Positions 10,855 to 18,914 of a DNA stretch of 37,186 nt are shown here, one piece after another. Within the stretch, counting starts at the first letter, position 1. Each line of letters starts with the position of its first letter. The translations under genes and the position numbers were made by a program. Under the pieces are notes generated by a model, which saw only the letters and a program-made list of their open reading frames with translations, made no database searches and had not been told where the DNA came from. The stretch comes from Clostridia bacterium (GTDB lineage Bacteria > Bacillota > Clostridia > Christensenellales > Aristaeellaceae): positions 1 through 37,186 of the forward strand of contig JAFZPI010000029.1 of NCBI GenBank assembly GCA_017552615.1. The letters run 5' to 3'.

Positions 10855-11730
10855 TTATTCCCCCGTGACCAGCGTGATCCGGCCCTGGGGCTCGGCATAG
10901 CCTTCGCCGATCTGGTTGTTTTGCTGGGTCGCGATGAACATCCAGATCACGTCGCGAACCACGGCGGTGGTGATTGTGCTCTCCTGGTTGGCTTCGGCCG
11001 CGGCCTTGAAGATATAGGAGGAGTCCATACCATTGAAGTTCGCGTTGCTGGTGATCACGGCGTAGGTGGCCTCCGGGTCGAAGGGCTGGCCGTTGACCTC
11101 GGTCACAGTGACGCGGCCCAGGGTGGCGGCGGTGAACCAGTGCTCTCCGTAGGCTTCGCCCTTGTCATAGGGGACGGTGAGGTCTACGGTGTAAGAGAGC
11201 CCGGAGACCTGCATCAGGGAAGCGCAGGCCGCTGTGGTCTCCTCGCTGAAGGGGAGACCCTGGGAGGCGGCTTCAAGCGCTTCGAGAAGCTGGGCACCGG
11301 TCATGTAGACGACAGCGACTTTGTTCGGATAGGGGAGGACCTCGGCCAGCTGTTCCGCGCCGAAGATCCCTTCGGGAATGTCGGTCTTCAGGTTGCCGGC
11401 ATTCCACAGGGCCACGACATGGTCGGCGTCGACCGAGAGGGCCGTGATGCCTGCGGCGACATCGTCTTCCTCAAAATAGGCGTTGATTTCCCCGGAGACG
11501 GCGAACCAGCGCAGGGCGTCGGCCCAGAAGTCGCCGAGGTTCGTTTCACCCTTGCGGGCCGCGTTGTCAGATCCGACAAAGGTGACGGAAGCGTAGGCCT
11601 GCAGGGTCTCGTCGAGTTCGATCTCGTTGCCGTGGGCGTCGATAAAGGTGGAGGCGAGGGCGGCCGTGCACAGGCTGCAGCCCAGGCAGAGGGCCAGGAT
11701 CAAGGAGATGAGGGTACGGATGGTGCGCAT
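10855..11730 (-). CDS. Secreted 5'-nucleotidase C-terminal-domain protein (no catalytic domain)
   Basis: A 291-residue protein with a signal peptide (MRTIRTLISLILALCLGCSL, cut near ALAS). All of the mature part matches the 5_nucleotid_C domain: TNLGDFWADALRW, ALWNAGNLKTDIPEG (the family's NGG-R substrate loop, altered), VVYMTGAQLLEALE, SGLSYTVDLTVPYD, and GRVTVTEVNGQPFDPEATYAV. The N-terminal metallophosphatase domain that carries the metals and catalysis in UshA-type enzymes is absent, so by itself it should not hydrolyse nucleotides. It may bind nucleotides or sugars, or be a structural module. ATG 11730 has a GGAGG site at 8 nt; longer starts lack one. It heads the MoxR/DUF58 operon, separated from moxR by the palindromic repeat. 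Confidence 0.75.
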   Translation of the reverse strand: MRTIRTLISLILALCLGCSLCTAALASTFIDAHGNEIELDETLQAYASVTFVGSDNAARKGETNLGDFWADALRWFAVSGEINAYFEEDDVAAGITALSVDADHVVALWNAGNLKTDIPEGIFGAEQLAEVLPYPNKVAVVYMTGAQLLEALEAASQGLPFSEETTAACASLMQVSGLSYTVDLTVPYDKGEAYGEHWFTAATLGRVTVTEVNGQPFDPEATYAVITSNANFNGMDSSYIFKAAAEANQESTITTAVVRDVIWMFIATQQNNQIGEGYAEPQGRITLVTGE

Positions 11731-11764
11731 GAATTTAACCTCCTGTTTGTTTGGTGCATTCTGC

Positions 11765-11809
11765 CCAAAAAGCAAAACACCCGGAAAGCTTCCGTCCGGA
11801 AGCTCTCGG
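11765..11809 (-). promoter_or_regulatory. Attenuator-like hairpin in the leader
   Basis: On the minus strand AGCTTCC (11804-11798) pairs with GGAAGCT (11793-11787) around a GGAC loop, with a weaker outer stem, and is followed by TTTTGCTTTTT (11775-11765). It lies between the promoter at 11924 and ATG 11730, so it could end transcription early. Further small hairpins lie upstream in the leader. No known riboswitch class was recognised. Confidence 0.45.
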
Positions 11810-11895
11810 CGTCTTCATGACACCGGAATGTTGGTGAATCGGATCGTATGGTATCCCGCTTCTGCGGACCTTGTCCAGCTTCAGCTGACACATGC

Positions 11896-11924
11896 ATCGT
11901 ACCATGCGAAGACGGGCTTGTCAA
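11896..11924 (-). promoter_or_regulatory. Promoter of the 5'-nucleotidase-C/MoxR operon
   Basis: On the minus strand a consensus TTGACA (11924-11919), a 17-base spacer and TACGAT (11901-11896), just after the terminator of the sirtuin operon. The leader is about 160 nt long. Confidence 0.65.
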
Positions 11925-11938
11925 TCGGAGTCTTCGCC

Positions 11939-11970
11939 AAAAAGCTCCGGAATTGTAATTCGTTCCGGAG
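11939..11970 (-). terminator. Terminator of the sirtuin/macrodomain operon
   Basis: On the minus strand CTCCGGAA (11970-11963) pairs perfectly with TTCCGGAG (11952-11945), followed by C and TTTTT. It begins 6 bases after the sirtuin stop codon. Confidence 0.85.
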
Positions 11971-11976
11971 TTTCAA

Positions 11977-12861
11977 TCATAAAAGCAGTTTCCGAATAAT
12001 CTCCGCGGAATCCCCGGAGATCGCAACCGAACGATCGCGGATCGCGTCCGGTACCGGCATATCCTCCATATTCAGGCAGACATAGGCGGCATCCGGGTTT
12101 CGGTAGACCTGCTGCCAGAAACTGTACTTGATGATCCCGGGCGTATTGTATCCCACGCCGATTTCCAGGAAAACGACCCGTTTGCCCTGATGGGCGGTCA
12201 GCCATACTTCGAATTCTACTGCGGCGTTTTGCCAGCCTTCGTCTTCGACGAACCTGTCGTCGGATCGCAAGTTCATCGTCAGGGGACGTCCGCAGTTGGG
12301 ACATTTCGGTATCAGATCCGAGGGGATGGTCATCGCCGCGCTTTTACCTTCCGGGAGTGTGAGTTTATTGCCTTCCTCGATGGTGTACCCTTGTGCGGAA
12401 ACCATTCTGCGAATGATGGCTTGGTTATCCCAGGTCTTTTTGCAACAGGGTTTTGTGCATTGAAAGAGTCCGTAATCCCCTTGGGTATAGAACAGGCGCT
12501 TCTTATCAAATCCTGCTTTCTGGAAGCAATGGTCCACATTCGTAGTCAGAACGAAATAGTCTTTCCCCTGAACCAGGCGCAGAAGATCGGCATAGGTACT
12601 CCTGGGCGGGTCCATATATCGGTTGACCCAGATATAACGACTCCAGTAGGCCCAGAATTCTTCCTGTGTTTTGTATGGATAAAATCCGCCGGAATACATA
12701 TCCGTAAAGCCGTACTTGCGGCCAAAGTCGCCGAAAACCTTCTCAAATCGCTCGCCCGTGTACATAAACCCGGCTGCGGTGGACAGACCGGCACCTGCTC
12801 CGATCATGACGGCGTCCGTTTGCCGGAGCCTTTCTTTTACCCAAGCTGTTTTTTCGTCCAT
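11977..12861 (-). CDS. Class M sirtuin (SirTM), NAD-dependent protein ADP-ribosyltransferase
   Basis: A 294-residue sirtuin. The NAD-binding IGAGAGLSTAAGF (residues 20-32) and TTNVDH (106-111) are clear, and a zinc site is formed by CTKPC (135-139) and CPNC near 190. In place of the catalytic His-Gly of deacetylating sirtuins there is QGDYGLFQC (Gln127), as in class M sirtuins of Staphylococcus and Streptococcus, which ADP-ribosylate a lipoylated GcvH-like carrier instead of deacetylating. ATG 12861 has an AGGAG site at 6 nt. It is the last gene of an operon with a zinc macrodomain hydrolase that removes the same modification. No GcvH-like or lipoate ligase gene is in this operon, so its substrate here is open. 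Confidence 0.85.
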   Translation of the reverse strand: MDEKTAWVKERLRQTDAVMIGAGAGLSTAAGFMYTGERFEKVFGDFGRKYGFTDMYSGGFYPYKTQEEFWAYWSRYIWVNRYMDPPRSTYADLLRLVQGKDYFVLTTNVDHCFQKAGFDKKRLFYTQGDYGLFQCTKPCCKKTWDNQAIIRRMVSAQGYTIEEGNKLTLPEGKSAAMTIPSDLIPKCPNCGRPLTMNLRSDDRFVEDEGWQNAAVEFEVWLTAHQGKRVVFLEIGVGYNTPGIIKYSFWQQVYRNPDAAYVCLNMEDMPVPDAIRDRSVAISGDSAEIIRKLLL

Positions 12862-12885
12862 GGCAGACTCCTGAATCAGGCAAAG

Positions 12886-12911
12886 GCCCCGGCAAAGCGC
12901 TTCACCGGGGC
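12886..12911 (-). other. GC-rich intercistronic hairpin
   Basis: GCCCCGG at 12886-12892 pairs with CCGGGGC at 12905-12911 between the 112-residue gene and the sirtuin gene. Only CTTT follows on the minus strand, so it is more likely a partial terminator or processing/stability element that lowers sirtuin expression. Confidence 0.5.
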
Positions 12912-12930
12912 ACGAAGGGGAATCGTGTGA

Positions 12931-13269
12931 TTAGATGATGGCCGTTGCGACGACCGTTCCGTCGGCGGCTGTAAAGATGCCGTTTTCTCCCTGCACCAAG
13001 GGATCGGCATGGCTGGTGATTGCCTTGGCAGCTTCGGCGTCATACCAGAATCCGTTCATGCCCAGCACAGCATTCTCCGGCAGGTCAAAAACGTAACCGT
13101 TTGCTTCTTCCGCCGCAAAGTCCACAATTTTTGCGATCTCATCCGGTGTATACGGTGCCGCGGTCAGAGGATTTACGATCCCTTCCCCGGCAAAGTACGT
13201 TTTCCCGTAGTAAATTGTTCCGACGCCATTGATGCTCACGCCGTACGCCCAGTTCTTCTGTTCTTTCAT
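12931..13269 (-). CDS. Uncharacterised 112-residue protein of the sirtuin/macrodomain operon
   Basis: I do not recognise this protein. It is soluble, acidic, has no signal peptide or membrane helix, and has no cysteine in the chosen frame. It begins MKEQKNWAYGVSINGVGTI and reads YYGKTYFAGEGIVNP, a TPDEIAKIVDFAAEE helix, then LGMNGFWYDAEAAKAI and a C-terminal beta-like end. ATG 13269 has AGGAG at 9 nt; an upstream extension to 13398 would overlap the macrodomain gene and give an odd Cys/Lys-rich leader. The gene sits between the macrodomain gene (91 bp upstream) and the sirtuin gene, the place where other lineages keep the GcvH-like carrier. It lacks a lipoyl ExxK hairpin pattern, so it is not an evident GcvH relative. 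A target or cofactor of the sirtuin is a possible role, by position only. Confidence 0.55.
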   Translation of the reverse strand: MKEQKNWAYGVSINGVGTIYYGKTYFAGEGIVNPLTAAPYTPDEIAKIVDFAAEEANGYVFDLPENAVLGMNGFWYDAEAAKAITSHADPLVQGENGIFTAADGTVVATAII

Positions 13270-13360
13270 TTCTGCCAGCTCCTTTTGCTTTTTGCCGGAT
13301 TTCTTCCGACAGCCAAAGCATACCGCACGGCAGCTGGCAAAACAAGTACGCACTATTTTA

Positions 13361-14170
13361 TTACATAGGCACCTTTTGGTAACTGCCTCCCGTGCCAAGC
13401 AAATGCTGATAGATCATGAGATCACTGTCTTTGAACACATTGAAAACGACGCGTTGGATTTGATTATTGCTTTCGAGATAATTCTCAACTGCCTGAACTG
13501 CAACTTCTGCCGCGCGCTGTGCCGGGAAACTGAACACGCCCGTGGAGATGCAGCAGAAAGCGACAGAACGAAGACCGTTCTGTGCCGCCAGTTTCAGGCA
13601 GTTGCGGTAGCAGGAAGCCAGCAGCGCGTCATGCTCTGCGGTCACTTCACCATCAATGATCGGTCCGACCGTATGCAGTACATACTTTGCCGGAAGATTG
13701 AACCCCGGGGTGATTTTCGCCTGCCCGGTGGGTTCCTCATGTCCCTGTGTTCGCATGAGCTCATGACAGGCAAGTCGCAGCTGTACGCCGGCCATCGAGT
13801 GAATGATGTTGTCAATGCAGGAGTGCATCGGAACAAAACAGCCGAGCATCTGGCTGTTGGCGGCGTTGACGATGGCGTCGCATTTCAGGGTCGTGATGTC
13901 GCCCTGCCAGAGGACAAGACGCGGATTACTGGGAGCAGCGGGAAGGGCATCCACGTCCGTGATGCCTTTCTCGGCGGTCATCTGCTGCAGGAATGCATCC
14001 TGGACGCGCAAAAACTCTTCCGTCACGGGCATGGGCGGACGGACGTTCATCAGGCTGCGGAGAAGCTGCCATTGCCGGGAGAGGGTGAAGGGAAACACGT
14101 CATACCGGTACTGAGGCATCTCTTTCAGCAGTTCCTGAATGAGCCACAGACATCTTTCCTGCTGATTCAT
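13361..14170 (-). CDS. Zinc-containing macrodomain protein-ADP-ribose hydrolase
   Basis: A 269-residue macrodomain protein of the Zn-Macro class. A helical N-terminal part of 80 residues is followed by the macrodomain: LVLWQGDITTLKCDAIVNAAN (residues 85-105), the zinc loop GCFVPMHSCIDNIIH with predicted ligands Cys111, His116 and Cys118, the YVLHTVGPI strand and the ISTGVFSFP phosphate loop. Members remove ADP-ribose put on proteins by the partner class M sirtuin. ATG 14170 overlaps the HxlR gene's stop as ATGA, so the two are translationally coupled. A longer start at 14209 lies inside the regulator gene and has no ribosome site. Confidence 0.88.
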   Translation of the reverse strand: MNQQERCLWLIQELLKEMPQYRYDVFPFTLSRQWQLLRSLMNVRPPMPVTEEFLRVQDAFLQQMTAEKGITDVDALPAAPSNPRLVLWQGDITTLKCDAIVNAANSQMLGCFVPMHSCIDNIIHSMAGVQLRLACHELMRTQGHEEPTGQAKITPGFNLPAKYVLHTVGPIIDGEVTAEHDALLASCYRNCLKLAAQNGLRSVAFCCISTGVFSFPAQRAAEVAVQAVENYLESNNQIQRVVFNVFKDSDLMIYQHLLGTGGSYQKVPM

Positions 14171-14544
14171 TCTGCCTCCCGCACAAGCTGCTGGTATCCG
14201 AGACCCCAAGCTTCCATGGCCTTGATGATCGGACGCATGGTCTCGCCCAGTTCACTGACGGCATACTCTACGCGGGGCGGCACTTCGGCATAAACTGTCC
14301 GGGTGATGATCCCGTCCACTTCCAGCGCCCGCAGGTTGTCCGTCAGTACTTTCTGACTGATACCGGGGATCGAGCGCAGCATTTCATTGAACCGCCAGGG
14401 GCGGGCCATCAGGTTGCGCAGAATCAGCAGCTTCCATTTGTTCCCAATCAGGTGAACGGTGGTGGCAACGGGGCAATCCGGCAGTTCTTCTTTGGTCAGC
14501 AACGGCGGCACCTCCGACAGGGTTGTTTTCTTCGCAGTCAGCAC
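14167..14544 (-). CDS. HxlR-family winged-helix transcription regulator
   Basis: A 125-residue DNA-binding protein of the HxlR/MarR-like class. It carries the family signature CPVATTVHLIGNKWKLLILR with the conserved N-terminal Cys24, known in relatives as a sensor of aldehydes, quinones or oxidants, and the wing segment with ISQKVLTDNLRALEVDG and VPPRVEYAVSELG. The start is probably GTG 14544, 7 nt after a GGAG; a TTG at 14550 is too close to it. It is the first gene of the macrodomain/sirtuin operon and a perfect palindrome covers its own promoter, so autoregulation is likely. This would tie the ADP-ribosylation system to redox or electrophile stress. Confidence 0.88.
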   Translation of the reverse strand: MLTAKKTTLSEVPPLLTKEELPDCPVATTVHLIGNKWKLLILRNLMARPWRFNEMLRSIPGISQKVLTDNLRALEVDGIITRTVYAEVPPRVEYAVSELGETMRPIIKAMEAWGLGYQQLVREAE

Positions 14545-14569
14545 ATTCAAACTCCAAAATCATACAGGA

Positions 14570-14588
14570 ACATCATATCGGATGATGT
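14570..14588. promoter_or_regulatory. Palindromic operator, probably for HxlR
   Basis: ACATCAT-ATCGG-ATGATGT, a perfect 7-bp inverted repeat with a 5-base spacer, overlaps the -10 box of the hxlR operon. Dyads of this size upstream of their own gene are usual for HxlR regulators. It also lies 35 bp before the -35 box of the divergent ATP synthase promoter. Confidence 0.65.
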
Positions 14589-14600
14589 ACGATTTTTCAA
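14572..14600 (-). promoter_or_regulatory. Promoter of the hxlR-macrodomain-sirtuin operon
   Basis: On the minus strand TTGAAA (14600-14595), 17-base spacer, TATGAT (14577-14572). The start point would be near 14565, giving a short leader before GTG 14544. Confidence 0.75.
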
Positions 14601-14622
14601 GGGGAATGAAGCGAAAAAACGG

Positions 14623-14651
14623 TTGACAATCCACACCAAAAAAGATAGCAT
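14623..14651 (+). promoter_or_regulatory. Promoter of the ATP synthase operon
   Basis: Consensus TTGACA (14623-14628), a 17-base spacer with an A tract, and TAGCAT (14646-14651). The start codon of atpI follows about 25 nt after the likely start point. Confidence 0.7.
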
Positions 14652-14680
14652 AAGGGAAGAGTATAAGGGGAGGTGTGCCT

Positions 14681-15101
14681 GTGCCGAAGGTCAGCGGGGC
14701 GGTTCGCCGGGAAACCGTGTGGGTCGCAGCCTGGACGGCGGGATTGACCGTGGTGATGAACCTCGTCTTTGCGCTGATCGGGAAATGGGAGACCGGCGTG
14801 TTGCTGGGGTCTCTCCTCGGCTGTGCCGCGGCGATCGGCTGCTTCTTCTGGCTCGGGATCACAGTGCAGAAAGCGGTTGGCAGGGAACAGAAGGACGCCA
14901 GGCGCATCCTGCAGTTCTCCCAGCTGGGCCGCCTGCTCCTGCAGGGCGCAGTTCTCGCGGCAGGGTTTGCGATCCCGTGGCTGAACGGCTGGGCCGTGAT
15001 GATCCCGCTGTTCTTCCCGCAGATTGCCGTGCGCCTCCGTCCCCTGTGGAAAAAAGGCATTCAGGGCGAAAACCAAAAAGAAAACGAGGCGGAAGGAGGA
15101 G

Positions 15102-15115
<14 letters not shown>
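14681..15115 (+). CDS. atpI: ATP synthase protein I-like (AtpI)
   Basis: A 144-residue membrane protein with four hydrophobic helices (about 14-34, 40-60, 81-97 and 101-118) and a charged tail. Its place as first gene before subunit a and its four-helix layout fit AtpI, an accessory factor that helps assemble the c-ring or handle Mg2+/Ca2+; AtpI proteins are poorly conserved, so the call rests largely on position. GTG 14681 is 7 nt after AAGGGGAGG; a GTG at 14675 is too close to that site. The 3' end overlaps the subunit a gene. Confidence 0.7.
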
Positions 15116-16366
<1,251 letters not shown>

Positions 16367-16394
16367 ACCCTGAGCACGAGAAACAGGAGTTATT

Positions 16395-16910
16395 ATGCAG
16401 TCACAGCAAATCATCACGGTCAATCTCTGGCAGATCGTCATCTCGCTGTGCAACCTGTGCGTTCTGTTCCTGATCGTCAAGCGCTTTCTCTACAAGCCTG
16501 TGAAGAAAATGCTGGCCCAGCGCCAGGCGCAGGTGGACGGGGTGTATGAGCAGGCGGACGAAGCGCTGCGAAAAGCGGAGGCGGACCAGGCGGCCTGGGC
16601 CGAAAAGATGACCCACGCCCGGGAAGAGGCCGATGCCATCATCCAGCGAGCTTCGGAGAACGCCCACCGTTCCGGCGACGCGATCCTGGCAGGTGCCAGG
16701 AGTCAGGCGGACGGGATCGTTCGCCAGGCCAAGGAAGAGGCACGCCTTACCCACCTGCAGGCGAAAGAGGGCATCCGCCACGAGATCGCAGGCGTGTCGA
16801 CCGAACTGGCAGAAAAGCTCCTCGGCCGCGAGATCAACGAGCAGGATCACCGGAACCTGATTGACGCATTCATCGACGAGATGGAGGACAGCCGTGGCGC
16901 AGATCAGTAA
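16395..16910 (+). CDS. atpF: F-type ATP synthase subunit b
   Basis: A 171-residue peripheral-stalk subunit: one N-terminal membrane helix (IVISLCNLCVLFLIVKRFLY, residues 13-32), then a long charged coiled coil with MLAQRQAQVDGVYEQADEAL and many Ala/Glu/Lys/Arg heptads to the end. Length and layout are normal for a single homodimeric b. ATG 16395 has AGGAG at 5 nt. Its last codons overlap the delta gene by 17 bp. Confidence 0.93.
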   Translation: MQSQQIITVNLWQIVISLCNLCVLFLIVKRFLYKPVKKMLAQRQAQVDGVYEQADEALRKAEADQAAWAEKMTHAREEADAIIQRASENAHRSGDAILAGARSQADGIVRQAKEEARLTHLQAKEGIRHEIAGVSTELAEKLLGREINEQDHRNLIDAFIDEMEDSRGADQ

Positions 16911-17420
16911 GGAATACGCGGCGGCGCTTTTCGCCATTGCCGAAGAAAAGAACCGCACGGTCGCCTGGTCGGAGAGCCTGAAGCAGATCGCAGAGATCCT
17001 TCAGGAAAATCCCCGGTATTTGGCTCTGCTGGCTTCTCCGGAGATCCCGCCGGAAGAAAGAAAGTCCCTCCTGGACCAGGCTTTCGGCGGTATGGCGGAT
17101 CCGGAGGTCATCTCCTTTATGGCGCTGATCTGCCGCAGGGGACGGGCCAAGGAACTGCCCGAGGCCATCACGCATTTCCGGCAGTTGGCGGATATCCGCA
17201 CCCGGACGCGGGTGGCCCGTGTCGTGAGCGCCGCCCCGCTGACGGAACAGGAGAAAAAACGCCTTACCGCCGCGCTCGAAAAGCAGAGCGGCATGAAGGT
17301 GACGCTTTCCTGCGCGGTGGACCCGTCCCTGATCGGCGGCCTGACGGTGGAGATGGACGGCAGGGTGACAGACGGCAGTGTGCGCACGCGCCTGCGTGAG
17401 ATAAAGGAAGTGATCGGCGG

Positions 17421-17424
<4 letters not shown>
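16894..17424 (+). CDS. atpH: F-type ATP synthase subunit delta
   Basis: A 176-residue OSCP/delta subunit that joins the b stalk to the top of F1. It begins [19 protein letters not shown], typical of the helical N-domain, and ends with the conserved C-domain stretch [26 protein letters not shown]. The start is GTG 16894 with GGAGG at 6 nt, inside the end of atpF. The stop overlaps the alpha start as ATGA. Confidence 0.92.

Positions 17425-18914
<1,490 letters not shown>

Follow-up and report, generated by a model that had tools for sequence, protein, structure and literature searches.

The window analysed here, a 37,186-nucleotide stretch of contig JAFZPI010000029.1 from a Clostridia bacterium of the family Aristaeellaceae (assembly GCA_017552615.1), holds four minus-strand genes from 14550 to 11977, in the order hxlR, Zn-macrodomain, 112-residue protein and SirTM, and this gut bacterium's four-gene cluster probably adds ADP-ribose to proteins and takes it off again. 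The locus is a variant of the lone SirTM/Zn-macrodomain operon with a real, new and optional partner, the 112-residue protein (hereafter the small protein). The reading preferred here, to which we give a probability of roughly 0.55, is that of a mono-ADP-ribosylation switch free of the GcvH-like carrier GcvH-L, predicted to stand under HxlR-type control and to include the small protein as a new, co-induced accessory. New in this respect is an undescribed small-protein family in a SirTM cluster; SirTM/Zn-macrodomain pairs without GcvH-L were already known. The operon had been proposed in an initial annotation made from the sequence alone, and all four genes were recovered on the minus strand with the catalytic residues in place.

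Writer, eraser and related systems

The SirTM protein scored 15.7 bits against PF02146, below the cut-off of 24, and aligned to the solved SpySirTM (5a3a) at 9.4e-64. Its N108, Q127 and R199 pair with Asn118, Gln137 and Arg192 of SpySirTM (residue numbers matched by counting along that alignment), the residues whose mutation 'dramatically decreased' activity (PMC4518038; this source and PMC11490716 were available as partial text), and Q127 is the glutamine to which the initial annotation had pointed in place of the deacetylase histidine. The protein is a class M sirtuin and, on this alignment, a predicted protein ADP-ribosyltransferase; the window's genome (2.03 Mb in 49 contigs, 72.8% complete) encodes two further sirtuins above the Pfam cut-off. 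The macrodomain protein matched PF01661 (7.4e-40) and NF003163 (360.8 bits, cut-off 272), with MorMacro (8rsi, 5.7e-82) as its best solved relative and SauMacro (5kiv, 2.6e-80) nearly equal as a match (278 vs 273 bits). It has the features of a Zn-macrodomain, namely some 84-100 residues ahead of the domain, NAAN at 102-105 and, as initially described, a complete C111/H116/C118 loop of the published Cx(4)HxC form (PMC11490716), the three zinc ligands being invariant in the 6 sequences compared. Writer and eraser lie in one operon, and the same pairing was found in relatives.

Bacterial SirTM/macrodomain pairs occur in independent operons or in extended ones with GcvH-L and LplA2, GcvH-L is the substrate shown there for bacterial SirTM, and the extended operon has been linked in print to oxidative stress and flavin enzymes (PMC4518038). 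The initial annotation had treated a lipoylated GcvH-like protein and its lipoate ligase as the rule and the small protein as filling their slot; in the available text of PMC4518038 the former is true only of extended operons, and no slot had to be filled, because independent operons were already described there. The window's locus shares its writer and eraser families with the extended operon of S. aureus and S. pyogenes (LplA2, GcvH-L, OYE/LLM) but has neither GcvH-L, lipoate ligase nor OYE/LLM, and its small protein matches no lipoyl domain. With the lone, or minimal, operons such as that of MorMacro, the closest solved relative of its macrodomain, it has in common SirTM and Zn-macrodomain genes without GcvH-L or LplA2, and it differs from them in carrying two further genes, hxlR and the gene for the small protein. 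MorMacro cannot demodify GcvH-L, nor do Zn-macrodomains from SirTM pairs or fusions, and the identification of physiological substrates, for example of Mfs1 fusions, has been named as clarifying specificity (PMC11490716, in the text available). The word HxlR was not met in the literature on SirTM/Zn-macrodomain operons, among the matches listed, and titles and abstracts held nothing on such partners of the pair.

A new protein family linked to SirTM

The small protein, which had initially been called unplaceable, indeed had no Pfam or NCBIfam match with an E of 1 or less; 41 domain copies of its family gave nothing below E 0.026 against Pfam, the family profile gave nothing convincing against PDB sequences (best E 0.14), and a PDB fold search returned no match. 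The ratio of nonsynonymous to synonymous substitution rates (dN/dS) of its gene was 0.13-0.40 in seven of eight pairs, the eighth having a saturated synonymous rate, and that of SirTM in the same eight pairs lay somewhat lower, at 0.08 to 0.17. The frame thus encodes a true protein under purifying selection, and a chance open reading frame was ruled out by dN/dS and conservation. An internal repeat check gave a match of 13 columns only (P 0.056), from which no duplication is claimed.

Searching the small-protein alignment against the GTDB collection yielded 28 loci, of which L027 and L037 share an assembly and four come from genomes that were also in a 150-genome sample; the titles of 12 name a ruminant stomach or gut compartment. 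SirTM lay within the fetched stretch at 17 of the 28, and among the other 11 it was located elsewhere in the genome in eight and not found in three. In a sample of 395 genomes of the order, the small protein occurred in four, all from the window's bacterial family and all with it beside SirTM, while SirTM occurred in 94. A sample of 250 genomes of the family gave matches in 27, of which 26 were kept (including the remnants G065, G085 and G998, and a surface protein in G942), and SirTM was present in 24 of these 26 carriers (3 of the 24 being remnants of the small gene) vs 71 of the 224 other genomes (both 24, small protein only 2, SirTM only 71, neither 153; Fisher p 1.7e-9). A sample of 391 genomes of the class gave the window's own genome only, plus two weak chance matches, so that in the samples searched the small protein was confined to the window's family. 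Matches dropped were G915 from the family sample (E 0.009, 879-residue frame), G522 and G549 (E 0.003-0.004, frames of 765-777 residues) and, from the ten matching genomes of the 150-genome sample, G069 and G014 (L009, L011; short matches, in a peptidase-like and an antisense frame) and G115 (L012; on score alone, E 0.005 over 41 residues). The initial proposal had been made to depend on conserved linkage with SirTM in related genomes, and such linkage was found in the GTDB loci, the order carriers and the family carriers alike. From these counts, the small protein strongly predicts SirTM and SirTM does not predict the small protein.

The loci fell into two main arrangements. Type A, with hxlR, Zn-macrodomain, small gene and SirTM in that order, comprised the window, L024, L025, L026, L027, G355 and G450; L029 (macrodomain, small gene, SirTM, no visible hxlR) and L034 (small gene, hxlR, macrodomain, SirTM) were similar, and in all nine the small protein was a single domain without a signal peptide (for G355 and G450, going by the alignment and the open frame). 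Type B comprised 19 loci in which the small gene was followed by rrf2, by a PNPOx/2[4Fe-4S] protein (14 of 19) and, in most complete cases, by Zn-macrodomain and SirTM; rrf2 adjoined the small gene in 18, and the nineteenth stops at a contig edge. The type B small protein begins with a clear signal peptide, after which comes one domain or two in tandem. SirTM lay in the stretch at 10 of the 19 type B loci, present only as separate pieces in L042, L050 and L051, and at seven of the nine other loci. L030 and L031 were mixed, combining type A-like sequence and promoter element with two domains and a signal peptide.

Predicted control by HxlR

A promoter-like site, P2, overlaps the final codons of the macrodomain gene and precedes the small gene (Table 1), and several relatives show GTTACC-N4-GGTAAC with AAAGTGCGTACTT at this position. 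Each of the 11 HxlR-type loci examined (the window, L024-L027, L029, L030, L031, L034, G355 and G450) has the AAAGTGCGTACTT element ahead of its small gene with at most one mismatch; at 1 mismatch none of the 19 type B loci has it, L036 among these lacking upstream sequence. It also precedes SirTM at loci that lack the small gene: allowing two mismatches, it was present at 14 of 24 family SirTM loci, 11 of the 14 having neither an intact nor a decayed small gene, and outside type A it lies upstream of macrodomain-SirTM in L074. A genome-wide HxlR box was discarded, a search of the window's genome that allowed 2 mismatches having found the element just once. A consensus scan returned 8 promoter-like sites, all predicted, in 11500-15000 vs a shuffle mean of 1.4, one being P1 ahead of hxlR. 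The layout suggests a division in which regulator and eraser would be on one promoter and writer and small protein on another.

The regulator matched the HxlR winged-helix family PF01638 at 1.2e-31, with YybR (1.4e-24), HxlR, YodB and QsrR among its PDB relatives. Its frame is open from 14550, and its start is most likely the TTG at 14502, which is preceded by GGAGG and gives 111 residues, because relatives begin at a matching MLTKEELPDC. Regulators of this family such as YybR/HypR, YodB and QsrR are thiol-sensing; the window's protein has the same domain and an N-terminal CPV cysteine that aligns with that of YybR, and it differs in that this is its single cysteine and that its putative target is the SirTM unit.

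In the mechanism preferred here, P1 would drive regulator and eraser, and P2 would be the main promoter of writer and small protein. By analogy with its relatives, HxlR may bind the P2 element and occupy it until an oxidant or electrophile reacts with its only cysteine; SirTM would then modify a client at an acidic residue, and the mark would be taken off by the macrodomain. The small protein would be the cytosolic form of a domain more often exported, acting as an optional client or adaptor of the pair, or simply belonging to the same stress regulon, rather than as an obligatory sole substrate. Of the redox or electrophile link drawn in the initial annotation, the HxlR-type regulator, its one N-terminal cysteine and the conserved operator-like element before the small gene and SirTM stand, while the redox part follows from family membership.

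Several observations weigh against this account. Adjacency of the small gene and SirTM within one bacterial family is partly the result of common descent, which the Fisher test ignores. The P2 element is absent upstream of hxlR itself, and 10 of the 24 family SirTM loci are without it at 2 mismatches, four of these being type B. Operons of other families with a divergent hxlR (L072, L073, L078, L079, L081) did not have the element there at 1 mismatch, and L029 and L030, which both have the element, show no hxlR in their stretches, L030 being a 3.6 kb contig.

A mirror copy of the element faces divergent ACGX-system genes in L030, L031 and L133. In L030 (1592-1801) and L031 (3984-5054) these are an ACGX-repeat peptide (TIGR04341, 52.7 bits) and a radical SAM/SPASM maturase (TIGR04340, 592 bits); together with a PIG3-like quinone oxidoreductase they are divergent from the small gene and share the operator-like element with it, and a similar maturase frame is divergent from SirTM in L133.

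Loss of the small gene and the question of a dedicated substrate

Fifteen fetched operons had hxlR, macrodomain and SirTM in order (those fetched in which all three were visible, and no census, the family SirTM scan having given loci for its best matches only), and the small gene was intact in seven of them, the type A loci, and missing or decayed in eight. In G327 the promoter was kept and the gene gone, G998 and G085 held remnants, and G002, G860, G871, G889 and G918 held none. The SirTM frame was unbroken in seven of the eight, G918 having a stop in SirTM, and the hxlR frame was interrupted in G871. An exported type B copy lies elsewhere in G860, G871 and G889, so that the domain is not gone from those cells. 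Outside this set, G065 has a small-gene remnant before macrodomain-SirTM, and in G257 macrodomain and SirTM overlap, leaving no room for the gene.

This pattern bears on the possibility that the small protein is the dedicated SirTM substrate, carrying on E29, E44, D62, D77 or D89 an ADP-ribose which the macrodomain removes, and replacing GcvH-L. These acidic residues are conserved, the gene lies between P2 and SirTM in window-like operons and encodes a cytosolic protein there, no GcvH or lipoate ligase was found in genomes with such operons, and in G085 the small gene and a neighbouring SirTM copy decayed together with a second SirTM left intact. Opposed to this are the excess of SirTM over the small protein in the order sample, the unbroken SirTM frames in seven of the eight operons without an intact small gene, the signal peptides of most family members, whose genes usually adjoin rrf2 and often one for a flavin/ferredoxin protein, and the want of an invariant Lys for a lipoyl group. 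A dedicated-substrate role is judged rather unlikely. The losses in 8 of 15 operons argue that the small protein is not the sole substrate of the pair, of which it may still be one client; the 'new substrate or adaptor' of the initial annotation holds as a genuine linked component and, given these losses, is disfavoured as the only substrate. A bolder version, on which we would place somewhat lower odds still, is that the small protein would be the first substrate of a SirTM other than a lipoyl carrier, with an unseen fold and exported and cytosolic forms, the cytosolic form being reversibly ADP-ribosylated under an HxlR redox switch that controls writer and eraser separately. The likelihoods attached to these readings and to the preferred one overlap and are not meant to sum to one.

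The locus supplies a co-located, lineage-restricted substrate candidate in genomes where neither GcvH nor lipoate ligase was detected; natural operons from which the candidate gene is deleted allow comparison, and the promoter element makes control testable.

At L020:8840-10681 a decayed SirTM copy adjoins a decayed small gene, followed by a second, different and intact SirTM. A PNPOx_N and two-cluster ferredoxin protein lies ahead of Zn-macrodomain/SirTM at L019:10574-11191, and such a protein also precedes the pair in genomes of the order without a small-protein match (L058, L060, L065, L067, L069), which makes it a second candidate partner or substrate; macrodomain, sirtuin, pyridoxamine and operon were not found together in any one paper of the literature searched.

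Exported relatives and the stress-regulon alternative

Among the 27 small proteins with a readable N-terminus (26 loci and the window; L028 and L036 fall outside the count), 20 carry a signal peptide and seven do not, as judged by hydrophobicity and sequence rather than SignalP. The 'soluble protein' of the initial annotation is thus apt in the window and not for most of the family. Among the 18 exported type B copies whose N-terminus is readable, 14 have an ATG and three more a GTG just ahead of the domain, after a GAGGAG-like stretch, which makes a cytosolic form of these copies possible through an internal start, a point that would also suit a dedicated substrate. The domain tree has mostly weak inner branches (6 of 39 starred); in it, type A copies cluster with domain two of L028, an exported form, and L034 is a distant outlier. 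One domain copy forms the C-terminus of a 794-residue repetitive surface-like protein (L120:2501-4885) without a Pfam or NCBIfam match.

Such export raises the alternative that the small protein belongs to a stress regulon, shares only a promoter with SirTM and does envelope or redox work without ever touching it. This is held at a little under even odds. It is favoured by the prevalence of signal peptides, by the surface-like protein, by the near-constant Rrf2 neighbour of type B, by the PNPOx/ferredoxin and ACGX-peptide genes that adjoin exported relatives, and by the 11 loci without SirTM in the stretch, including the three whose genomes yielded none. It is less easily squared with SirTM in nearly all family carriers and most GTDB loci, or with window-like operons, where the protein has no signal peptide and its gene stands between promoter and SirTM (in L030, though, an exported form precedes SirTM).

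Search for a lipoylated carrier

The initial annotation had found neither a GcvH-like protein nor a lipoate ligase in the operon; both are indeed absent from it, and neither model found a match elsewhere in the window's genome. No GcvH match was obtained in 26 of 31 small-protein carriers, including three near-complete relatives with the same operon, G076 (99%), G355 (98%, 2 contigs) and G450 (97%, 1 contig); GcvH was above the cut-off in G085, G463, G469 and G486, with a weak match in G480. The lipoate ligase model gave no match in 10 of 12 genomes, again including the window's and these three, and matched in G008 (Rrf2-type) and in G085, where the small gene is decayed. Of 14 control genomes, 13 gave a match to the GcvH model, 10 of these over the cut-off, and 9 to the ligase model, 3 of these over the cut-off; the ligase search is thus the less sensitive. 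The small protein itself does not resemble a lipoyl or GcvH-like carrier, having no lipoyl-domain match, no invariant Lys and no PDB fold match.

Because neither GcvH nor lipoate ligase was detected in the window's genome or the three relatives, a lipoylated carrier is unlikely as the substrate in these four. That a lipoylated GcvH-like protein encoded elsewhere in the genome is the true substrate, with the small protein incidental, would accord with GcvH-L as the substrate shown for bacterial SirTM (PMC4518038, partial text) and with the five carriers that do have a GcvH match. The closest solved macrodomain is, however, that of MorMacro, reported in the available text as unable to demodify GcvH-L (PMC11490716), with SauMacro nearly as close, and a hidden GcvH was rejected for want of a match in the window's genome, at its 72.8% completeness, or in the most complete of the relatives sharing the operon. 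This explanation is very improbable overall and largely refuted for the closest relatives.

Feature coordinates and neighbouring genes

The small gene, from 13269 to 12931, has an ATG start preceded by AAAGGAG; the remaining features are placed in Table 1. A phage or plasmid home for the locus was set aside, there being no match in the phage or plasmid collection.

Table 1. Features of the hxlR/Zn-macrodomain/small protein/SirTM locus, in window positions
Feature	Coordinates	Strand	Basis
P1, promoter-like site TTGAAA-17-TATGAT, 5' of hxlR	14572..14600	-	consensus scan
hxlR, 111 residues, single Cys (Cys10) in DCPV	14167..14502	-	PF01638, PDB relatives, start from relatives
Zn-macrodomain protein (eraser), 269 residues	13361..14170	-	NF003163, MorMacro 8rsi, SauMacro 5kiv
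Zinc loop codons Cys111 to Cys118 (C-x4-H-x-C)	13817..13840	-	translation, motif of PMC11490716 (partial text)
P2, TTACCA-16-TAAAAT then AGTGCGTACTTG; putative promoter-operator of small gene and SirTM	13343..13382	-	conservation, consensus scan
112-residue protein, new 'NWAYG' domain family, without signal peptide	12931..13269	-	alignment, dN/dS, no Pfam/NCBIfam/PDB match
SirTM (writer), class M sirtuin, 294 residues; N108, Q127, R199	11977..12861	-	alignment to 5a3a

Positions 10855-11775 encode a protein that looks secreted and has only the C-terminal domain of a 5'-nucleotidase (PF02872, 1e-26), with no metallophosphatase match. Divergent from hxlR lies an ATP synthase operon (14675-18914), with subunit I (PF03899) at 14675 and further subunits recognised by eye.

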